Shown here in pieces: positions 25,944 through 29,826 of a stretch of 64,000 nucleotides of DNA. A program made the translations under genes and the position numbers. This DNA comes from an uncultured bacterium. GTDB taxonomy: Bacteria; Verrucomicrobiota; Kiritimatiellia; CAIKKV01; CAIJXV01. The stretch spans positions 110,695-174,694 of the forward strand of contig CAIJXV010000006.1 of the NCBI GenBank assembly GCA_903824675.1, in the 5' to 3' direction. The notes beneath the pieces were generated by a model. The model did not search any database, was not told where the DNA came from, and saw only the letters and a program-made list of their open reading frames with translations. Each line of letters opens with the position of its first letter. Positions within the stretch are counted from its first letter, which is position 1.

Positions 25944-26669
25944 CTAAGCTACCCGGATTGATTCATGTTCGGCGGCGAGCAGGGCTTCGCGCATCTCGGC
26001 GGTGGATGAGGAGGTCCGGAGCTGTTCGAGAAGGGGAGTCTGCTGGCACATGCAACACAGCCGGGCCAGGACATGCAGATGCAGGCGGTCATCCTGACAG
26101 CAGATCAGGAAAAACAGGTCCGTGGGGCGGCCATCCGGAGCGCCGAAATGAACCGGATGGAGGGCGCGGGCGAGCACGATAAACGATTCGGAAAACATGT
26201 AGGGTTCATGGTGGCGGGGATGGAGCAGGGCGATCCCGCCGGCGAGGGCGGTGGAACAGAGGGCTTCCCGTTCGGTGAGGCTATCCAATAAATCCTTGGA
26301 GTCGGAGGAGAGGCGTTCGGTTTTTTCTGCGAGAGCGACCATGTCGCGGAGAATCGAGGCGCGGGTTTTGGCCCCGAAATGCGGGGCGATGAATTCGGTT
26401 GCGATCAGGCGTTCCATGAAGGTGGTGGCGGAGAGGGCTGCCGCCGCGACCTTGGCGGACGATTGCCTATGGTAGGCTTTGAGGCGTTTTTCAGTCAGGC
26501 CGAGGATGCGCCGCGAGGCCCAAGTGTCGATTTCTTTTTTGCGGAAGAGGAAGCGATCCCCCTGCTTTTCGAACGGGATTTCGCGATCCCTGACCAAAGC
26601 ATCGAAATCGGTGCGAGCCAGGTGCAGATAATGCATGGTTTCATCCGCGGTCATTAAACGATGTGGCAT
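25944..26669 (-). CDS. Excisionase-like HTH fused to PTS EIIA (PtsN-type) domain
   Basis: A 241-residue two-domain protein. Residues 1-55 look like an excisionase/MerR-type helix-turn-helix (LMTADETMHYLHLARTDFDA, then IPFEKQGDRFLFRKKEIDTW). Residues about 85-235 match the PTS EIIA type 2/PtsN fold, with the phosphorylation-site region LAGGIALLHPRH, where His150 would be the phospho-acceptor, and the downstream FFLICCQDDRLHLHVLARL. It lies 8 bp after the beta-galactosidase gene, with GGAAGGA upstream, in one operon. No PTS permease or HPr is nearby. A DNA-binding sensor of PTS phosphorylation state is the simplest reading, but that is inference. Confidence 0.78.
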   Translation of the reverse strand: MPHRLMTADETMHYLHLARTDFDALVRDREIPFEKQGDRFLFRKKEIDTWASRRILGLTEKRLKAYHRQSSAKVAAAALSATTFMERLIATEFIAPHFGAKTRASILRDMVALAEKTERLSSDSKDLLDSLTEREALCSTALAGGIALLHPRHHEPYMFSESFIVLARALHPVHFGAPDGRPTDLFFLICCQDDRLHLHVLARLCCMCQQTPLLEQLRTSSSTAEMREALLAAEHESIRVA

Positions 26670-26677
26670 GGTGCGCG

Positions 26678-29600
26678 TTAATCCTTCCGGTTGACGCAGG
26701 GTCGCAGGCGCAGGGAGAAGACGACCGGTTCCGTCAAATTAAACAGGTATTGGGGGAGCGGACCGGGCCCGCAACTGTTGCTGCCGAGTCCGCATTGGCG
26801 GTAGTCCAGGTTGAAGACCGTGCGGTGTGACATCGGCAATTCATGGGGGTGTGCCGCCCGGGTGAGTTCCTCGGCGGTCCAGGGATGAACACTGGTTTCG
26901 AAAACCGGTTCGCCGCTGGCCAATAGTCCGAACCCGTGCCGATCGGTTACGGTCGCCCAACGCACATCGGTTTTATTGCCGTTTTCCTGGGGTTTGAGGT
27001 AGGGAACATATTGATCGAGTACCGATCCACTGAAGCGCCCCATGCGGGCACTTTCCCGGCGATCACAATAATTTTCATGGGGCCCCCGTCCGAACCAGGT
27101 GAAACGATTGAAGACGGCGGGCATTTGGGCCTGCCACCCGAGTCGGGGAAGCGGGGGGAGGGCGCGGAGCGGCGTGACTTTGAGCGATAGCCGAATTTCG
27201 CCGTCGCCGTGAACGGTGAATCGGGTTTCGGTACGCAGAAGAGGTGGGGCACTACGCGGCCCGAGGCAATGGATGGCCCGGCCTTCCCACGCCGAGGTTG
27301 AAATCCGACTGGATTCAAAGGAGACGCGCCGCAATTGAAGCCGGTCGAGGCCGATCTCGCGCCAGCGGATGGCCATTTTTTCGGAACCCCAGAGAGTGAT
27401 GTCATTATCGGTCGGAGCCCGCCAGAGTTGAAGCTTGAGCGGTGCTTCCAGGAGAGGACGTCCTTGGGCTTCCCAAGCGACCAGTGCGCCGATCCGTGTG
27501 TCGATGTCCACCCGGAAATCGTCGCCTTGAAGGGCGAGGAGCGTGCCGCTTTTGCCGATTTCAAGAGCGGGGAGTGAGGCGTGGGTTTGAACCGGGCGCG
27601 ACGATTTAAACGGGATGGCAAACTGTTCGAATGCCATCTCGAATCCGGCTTTGGCCCAGGCGCAGTCTTTATTGAGCGTAAAAACGAAGTCGACGAAATA
27701 TTCCACGCCGGGCGTCGTTTTGAAGGCAGGCCAGGTGATTTTCAAGGGGGCGGTCTGGCCGGGTTTAAGATCGGGCAACTCCAGAGAGCCCCGGCCAATT
27801 TCGATTCCGTCTGCGCACAAAATCCATTGCCCATTGAAATCACTGAGCGAACGGAAATCGCGTCGATTGAGAATCTGGAATCGTCCCACCCGGGGATCGA
27901 TGGCTTCCATCTTGACCGGTTGCAGGACCTTCTTGTATTCGGATAGACAGGGGTGGGGCGTGCGGTCCGGGGAGATCATGCCGTCGATGCAGAAATTTCC
28001 GTCATTCGGCTGATCGTTGAAGTCCCCGCCATAAGCCAACCAGTCAATCCCCTCCGGAGTGCGCTGGCGGATGCCATGATCGGCCCACTCCCAGACACAG
28101 CCGCCGATCAGGCGGGGATGATTCCAGATGGCGTCCCAGTATTCCTTGAAATTCCCGGGACCATTGCCCATGGCGTGGGCATACTCGCACATGAAGAAGG
28201 GGCGGGCGTCATCGGTTTTCTGGCCTTCCTCGATCAGACTGGTCACGGTCGGGTACATGACGCTGACGATATCGACACAGGCGGTACGGGTTTCGCAGTA
28301 ATGGATCAGACGGGAGGTGTCGCGGTGGCGGATGGCGGTGGCCATGGCGTCATGGTTGGGGCCGTAACCCGACTCGTTGCCGAGCGACCAGATGATGACG
28401 GACGGATGATTCTTGTCGCGTTCCATCATGCGGACCGCACGGTCGACGTAGGCTTTTTTCCAGGCGGGATCCTTGGACAGCCGGTGATAATCCGAGCCGC
28501 TCATGCTCATTCCGTGGGTTTCCAAATCGGCTTCGTCGATCAGGTAAATGCCATACTGGTCGCAGAGATCATACCAGCGGGGATCATCGGGATAGTGCGA
28601 GGTGCGGACGGCGTTGATGTTGTGGCTTTTCATGAGCCGGATATCGGTGAGCATTTGCTCCACAGGGACGGTATGGCCAAAATCCGGATGAAATTCGTGG
28701 CGGTTGACCCCGCGGATTTTAATGGGCTTCCCATTGATCAACAGTTGCTTGTCGCGGATCTCGACCTGGCGGAATCCGACCTTAAAACATTGGAATTCGA
28801 GGGGCTGTTGGGCGGCATCCTGGAGCGAGACCAATAAGGTATAGAGGTGGGGTTCTTCCGCATTCCATTGACGGGGGGCTTTGACGGCGATTGAGAAGTT
28901 GAGGTTTTTTTTGCCGGTTGGCTTAAGACTTTTCGTGCGACCGGCTTCAACCTCAAACACTTGAACGCCATCGGGATCCAGGAGTTCGCATCGGATGGAA
29001 TGGGAACCGGCGGACTGGCTGGACCGGTTGGCGAGGGCGAAGGAGAGCTGGAGTTCGGCATCGCGATAGGCCGCGTCAAAACGGGTTTGGACAAAAACAT
29101 CCCGGATCTGCACGGGGGGGATGGCATACAGGGTCACATCGCGGAAGATGCCGCTCAAGCGCCATTTGTCCTGATCATCGAGGTAGCTTCCATCCGACCA
29201 TTTAAAAACCTGGACGGCGAGTTGGTTCCGGCCCGGCTTGAGGAGGCGGGTTACGTCAAATTCCGCGGGCAGGTGCGGGCCTTTGCTGAAACCGGCCAGG
29301 GCTCCGTTGACCCAGACATAAAAGGCGGAATCGACCCCGCCGAAATGGAGGATGACCTCGAGGCCTTTCCAATCCGATGGCACATTGAAAGTGTGGCGAT
29401 AAAGGCCGATGGGATTATCATCGGGCACAAAAGGCGGGTCGATCGGGAAAGGGTAATTCACATTGGTATAGTTGGGGACATCGTAAGCGCCTTGGAGTTG
29501 CCAGCAACCGGGAACGGCGTGAAGGGGCCATTGGGAGTCATCGAAATCGGCGGTCTCGAAATCGGTCTCGATTCGGTCGGGGGAGGGGATATATCGAAAG

Positions 29601-29770
29601 CGCCACTCGCCATTCAGGGATTGGACCCAGGGATTGGTTTCAGGGGAGCGGGCAAGGGCGACGGCGCGGCTGGGGCAGGCGATGGCGGAGGTGCGGGGAG
29701 CCTCGCGGAAACGGTGGAGAATCTGCGGATTTTGCCAATCGCAGTCCGCGATGGAATGTTTTAAAGTCAT
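26678..29770 (-). CDS. Beta-galactosidase, glycoside hydrolase family 2 (LacZ type)
   Basis: A 1030-residue LacZ-class enzyme, full length. In order: sugar-binding jelly roll ([20 protein letters not shown]), immunoglobulin-like domain, TIM barrel ([17 protein letters not shown]), second beta domain and the beta-galactosidase small-chain domain. The catalytic acid/base Glu466 is in [13 protein letters not shown] and the nucleophile Glu529 in [13 protein letters not shown], as in E. coli LacZ. No signal peptide, so cytoplasmic. A strong promoter lies 28-56 bp upstream and AGGAG precedes the ATG. The HTH-EIIA gene follows in the same transcript, suggesting PTS-linked control. Confidence 0.96.
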
Positions 29771-29797
29771 AATCGGTGGACTCCTGTCAATCCAGCG

Positions 29798-29826
29798 ATT
29801 ACAGCACTAGAGACGAGCGTCGTCAA
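29798..29826 (-). promoter_or_regulatory. Sigma70-type promoter of the beta-galactosidase operon
   Basis: On the minus strand TTGACG (29826-29821) and TGTAAT (29803-29798) are separated by exactly 17 bp, each matching five of six consensus positions. The expected start is near 29791, giving a leader of about 20 bases with AGGAG before the ATG. Confidence 0.7.

Follow-up and report, generated by a model that had tools for sequence, protein, structure and literature searches.

Known PtsN (EIIA-Ntr) proteins act through protein-protein contacts, on transporters and kinases (reviewed in PMC13104625), and in the PtsN systems surveyed it is via such contacts that the permease-less PTS exerts its role. 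For Brucella melitensis, PMC2937029 reports a functional phosphorelay in a permease-less regulatory PTS with an HPr kinase, and PMC2405797 describes permease-less regulatory PTSs, with EI-R/Ntr groups, in Chlamydiales and Planctomycetes. PTS-controlled transcription is known from the PRD-type regulators CelR and MtlR, in which two PRDs and an EIIB domain lie between an N-terminal HTH and a C-terminal EIIA domain, and which sit with PTS permeases (PMC3478281). Winged helices of the Xis-like type control transcription in BldC and in Euo of the Chlamydiae, which belong to the wider PVC group (PMC4989314).

The gene described here encodes a protein in which an excisionase-like DNA-binding domain is joined to a PtsN-type EIIA domain. 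It was found behind a lacZ gene in a 64,000-nt stretch of DNA, which is called the window below. Through a PtsN that carries a DNA-binding domain, a permease-less PTS would gain a direct and testable output, and the family occurs widely in Verrucomicrobiota, many members of which degrade polysaccharides. The annotation of PtsN_2-type proteins of Chlamydia lists an HTH domain together with EIIA, and the same combination of two domains apparently occurs in that related phylum. A literature search, which covered few subscription papers, found no functional study of a two-domain HTH-EIIA protein and no paper on PTS-linked carbon regulation in Verrucomicrobiota, a subject that appears to be little studied.

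The lacZ-fusion gene pair

The following features were identified in the window:

25944-26669, minus strand: HTH_17-PTS_EIIA_2 fusion, 241 aa (ORF, Pfam, family-wide architecture, AlphaFold2)
26508-26657, minus strand: HTH_17/excisionase-like winged-helix domain of the fusion, residues 5-54 (Pfam, Foldseek)
25980-26399, minus strand: PtsN/EIIA-Ntr-type EIIA domain of the fusion, residues 91-230 (Pfam, PDB sequence matches, Foldseek)
26220-26222, minus strand: His150, predicted phospho-acceptor, in the motif LLHPRHH (alignment to the PtsN PHG histidine)
26670-26690, minus strand: lacZ stop, 8-bp gap and ribosome-binding site GGAAGGA of the fusion gene (sequence)
26678-29770, minus strand: LacZ-type GH2 beta-galactosidase, 1030 aa (ORF, Pfam, NCBIfam, catalytic motifs)
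29798-29826, minus strand: candidate sigma-70 promoter TTGACG-17-TGTAAT (10/12 match), with a GACGA-NNN-TCGTC dyad overlapping the -35

The original prediction of a GH2 beta-galactosidase gene followed by a gene for an HTH/EIIA fusion is correct as to both ORFs, which lie on the minus strand and whose Pfam domains score above cut-off. The fusion gene is located 3' of lacZ on the same strand after a gap of 8 bp, and its ribosome-binding site overlaps the end of lacZ. The two genes form an operon-like pair that is probably co-transcribed in the source lineage. The first gene product is a LacZ-type GH2 beta-galactosidase: all GH2 domains and Bgal_small_N exceed their Pfam cut-offs, the score against NCBIfam NF052611 ('beta-galactosidase, LacZ type') is 1005 bits (cut-off 999), and both catalytic glutamate motifs are intact (NESGYG at 465 and CEYAHAMGN at 528). 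No signal peptide was evident in LacZ on inspection by eye.

About 195 bp downstream of the fusion gene lies a gene for an AAA_14-DUF4143 ATPase (24429-25748, minus strand), which is not conserved at the loci of relatives. On the other side, from position 30139, a PAS-rich hybrid histidine kinase gene shows an apparent frameshift near 32.70 kb (32600-33362, plus strand), with the ATPase C-terminus and receiver resuming in another frame; either an error in sequencing or a genuine disruption could account for this.

Domain architecture and predicted fold of the fusion protein

The C-terminal part of the fusion matches Pfam PTS_EIIA_2 with 72 bits (cut-off 27), and carries the phospho-histidine position, the second histidine and the arginine of that superfamily. 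Its sequence matches in the PDB (2a0j, 3urr, 4gqx and 1a6j) are all PtsN proteins, while the score against the PtsN/EIIA-Ntr equivalog TIGR01419, 53.2 bits with a cut-off of 138.7, places the protein outside that narrower family. The HTH_17 match of the N-terminus is thin in the single sequence (28.8 bits, cut-off 27), and its match to NCBIfam TIGR01764 (25.5 bits) stays under the cut-off of 28.8. Among the aligned family members, HTH_17 was detected in 67 out of 68 (best E 1.7e-16) and PTS_EIIA_2 in all 68, and the two-domain architecture is therefore not a chance match. No domain other than these two exceeded its cut-off, and the protein is not a PRD-type PTS regulator with PRD and EIIB.

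An AlphaFold2 model built from 68 sequences has a mean pLDDT of 90.9, with an N-terminus of the order H-H-E-E-H. Foldseek matched the full-length model to EIIA-Ntr (1a6j, E 1.8e-10), and only the EIIA domain was represented among the matches listed; the N-terminus was therefore modelled separately (mean pLDDT 74, moderate confidence). This model matched best the RdfS excisionase (49 residues, rmsd 1.1-1.3), the BldC-DNA complex and Pukovnik Xis; probabilities were 0.93-1.00, but the E-values (0.13-0.4) were weak, which is to be expected with a domain of this size. Profile and fold together assign the N-terminus to the HTH_17/Xis-MerR winged helices, the Foldseek E-values being weak. The proposed joining of an excisionase-like DNA-binding domain to a PtsN-type EIIA domain is thus supported by Pfam and by the predicted Xis-like fold, and the HMM search that had been suggested as a check finds both domains family-wide.

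Distribution of the family and its linkage to lacZ

In a sample of 241 genomes drawn from Verrucomicrobiota, matches to the fusion family were found in 108 genomes at E <= 1e-8, a tally that takes in paralogous EIIA proteins too, and in 78 at E <= 1e-25. Named matches came from Verrucomicrobiota, Kiritimatiellae and 'Lentisphaerae' metagenome genomes, with 47-57% identity. A search of plasmids gave only partial matches to the EIIA domain. The fusion family is old and spans the Verrucomicrobiota; beyond a few loci no conserved gene neighbour was found among relatives.

The original prediction saw in the fusion a dedicated local regulator of lacZ, which would bind the lacZ promoter and, via the shared transcript, form a feedback loop switched by phosphoryl state. 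The tight two-gene layout with its 8-bp gap is consistent with this, as are a plausible promoter whose -35 is overlapped by a short dyad and one further locus, L154, where the fusion gene diverges from a gene for a Gfo/Idh dehydrogenase, behind which lies lacZ. Against it, a LacZ-like neighbour was found in none of 80 named relatives (flanks up to 10 kb), and L154 was the only case among 40 further loci; L155, from the same genus, is without a lacZ neighbour. This amounts to one LacZ-like gene within 10 kb among 120 distinct relatives (1.72 Mb of flank), where about 0.9 would be expected on the assumption that 4 Mb contain 2 lacZ genes. None of these 120 relatives has the fusion in an operon with lacZ. 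In the 241 genomes, presence of the fusion was uncorrelated with that of lacZ (53/25/108/55, Fisher p = 0.88, relatedness of the genomes being ignored), the suggested check for co-occurrence, made with lacZ, thus showing no association, and in the four relatives of the same order that were checked, lacZ and fusion are on separate contigs.

Neither the conserved linkage nor the co-occurrence with lacZ that would mark a dedicated lac-operon regulator was thus found, and as the main reading such a role was rejected on the neighbourhood and co-occurrence tests. It cannot be said that homologues never lie near sugar genes, because of the divergent L154 locus near lacZ, yet the frequency is about that of chance. 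We consider it unlikely that the fusion is a dedicated lacZ regulator. Its adjacency to lacZ looks like a lineage-specific exception, and the protein is therefore probably a general regulator rather than a dedicated lactase switch.

Promoter and upstream regions

Upstream of lacZ, a candidate promoter consists of a -35 box TTGACG (29826-29821) and a -10 box TGTAAT (29803-29798) with a spacing of 17 bp. It had been called excellent; string and spacing are indeed present, but this overstates a 10/12 match that is attained by only 0.6% of random 150-bp pieces on the same strand, and whose -10 box lacks its second-position A (-11 A). A standard promoter scan, which is stricter in requiring this A, misses the site and performed no better than on shuffled sequence.

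Footprinting of the regions upstream of 79 relatives, a crude procedure that misses weak motifs, found no shared operator. The only enriched upstream words in relatives derive from a tRNA gene, tRNA-Thr or tRNA-Met at some loci; tRNA-Thr (CGT) immediately precedes the fusion gene at L025:1372-1447, L026:1414-1489 and L071:9879-9954. With no common upstream operator and no conserved linkage to lacZ, the proposed lacZ feedback loop is weakly supported.

The lack of an operator motif upstream of relatives would also suit a protein whose EIIA domain works mainly via protein contacts, as PtsN proteins do (PMC13104625), and whose HTH serves oligomerisation or localisation instead of promoter control. 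However, HTH_17 is kept in 67/68 aligned members, and its winged-helix region has invariant residues L15, P32, F42, D48, W50 and S52 in the alignment of relatives, which makes this alternative rather improbable.

Predicted phospho-site and PTS relay genes

His150 aligns with the phospho-histidine of PtsN and, like Arg134, Glu135 and His197, is invariant in 81/81 relatives; this alignment supports its designation as the likely phospho-histidine. The surrounding motif is non-canonical, LLHPRHH versus IPHG[RK] in PtsN, with the adjacent Pro and Gly replaced, and because of this difference docking of HPr on the fusion is not guaranteed. Elsewhere in the source genome, three further EIIA proteins keep the usual IPH or VPH. 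It is very improbable that, as these replacements beside canonical paralogues might suggest, the EIIA domain has lost its phosphorylation and simply binds a ligand or dimerises as part of a DNA-binding protein, since the 81/81 invariance of His150, His197, Arg134 and Glu135 is hard to explain without phosphotransfer.

No further PTS genes were seen in the window, in agreement with the original prediction that permease, EI and HPr genes are lacking. For the genome as a whole (assembly 96% complete) this holds only for the two permease families searched, PTS_EIIC and EII-Sor, neither of which was found; three EI, two HPr, one HPr kinase and four PTS_EIIA_2 proteins are encoded. An 'orphan' EIIA without EI or HPr was ruled out by these relay genes elsewhere in the genome. 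Like PtsP, one of the EIs has a GAF domain at its N-terminus. The HPr kinase gene is clustered with one HPr and one EI gene in the order kdsA-lptC-lptA-lptB-hpf-hprK-HPr-EI-metK (non-PTS gene names read by eye from the sequences). The HPr motifs around His15 (MHARP) and Ser46 (GKSIMGLM) are kept. Judged by gene content, the PTS of the source genome is apparently regulatory and permease-less.

Of the 241 genomes sampled from the phylum, 239 have EI. In one genome (G046, locus L164; 95% complete, 3 contigs), fusion homologues are present and the EI N-terminal domain was not detected.

The source genome also encodes a second HTH_17-EIIA fusion (G000:C62, locus L143:7534-8283, minus strand), which has a canonical phospho-site (AIPH), matches HTH_17 more strongly and adjoins a gene resembling a membrane NADH-dehydrogenase or hydrogenase subunit. 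In the fourth EIIA_2 protein (G000:C86, locus L142:6978-7877, plus strand), an N-terminal C4-type zinc ribbon (Zn_ribbon_9) replaces the HTH.

Proposed function

We think it likely, though far from certain, that the fusion is a PTS-responsive DNA-binding regulator whose targets lie most likely in trans. The starting points are the observed domains, the fold prediction, the conserved phospho-site, the relay genes and the absence of a conserved neighbourhood. For phosphorylation, DNA binding, their coupling and all targets, we infer the following. EI would charge HPr with PEP, HPr would pass the phosphoryl group to His150 of the PtsN-like domain, and HPr kinase may gate HPr. The phosphorylation state would alter DNA binding or oligomerisation of the excisionase-like winged helix, and energy or carbon state would thereby be read out directly on promoters. 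Gene neighbourhood would not define the main targets, and the fusion gene would have come to sit behind lacZ in the source lineage by chance or by recent recruitment. As the fusion gene lies behind lacZ in the source lineage and is probably co-transcribed with it, lacZ itself may or may not be a target; the link matters little, since it looks lineage-specific.

More tentatively, the family could be an uncharacterised class of switches, spread across the phylum, in which a single protein links the PTS to DNA. A transcription factor would then itself be the last acceptor in a permease-less PTS and would act as a global carbon/energy regulator in many Verrucomicrobiota, with neither PRDs nor a sugar permease involved.

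Comparison with known regulators

The C-terminus of the fusion resembles PtsN/EIIA-Ntr (TIGR01419; 1a6j, 2a0j, 3urr, 4gqx) in its fold, its predicted phospho-histidine and its likely feed from a permease-less regulatory PTS, but known PtsN proteins are single-domain, whereas the fusion adds an N-terminal DNA-binding domain. The available texts on Brucella (PMC2937029) and on Chlamydiales and Planctomycetes (PMC2405797) describe the same set as apparently exists in the source genome, i.e. EI, HPr, HPr kinase and EIIA-Ntr with no permeases, and do not mention an EIIA that binds DNA. Euo (PMC4989314) and BldC share the Xis-like winged helix, there controlling transcription, but have no EIIA domain. 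CelR and MtlR (PMC3478281) share with the fusion an N-terminal HTH and a C-terminal EIIA domain with a phosphorylatable histidine, as well as the control of transcription by the PTS, which is predicted for the fusion. They differ from it in their intervening domains and their association with permeases, the fusion having two domains in 241 aa, no PRD or EIIB, and a genome in which neither of the permease families searched was found. The two-domain HTH-EIIA form is a simpler variant of such CelR/MtlR-like HTH and EIIA regulators.
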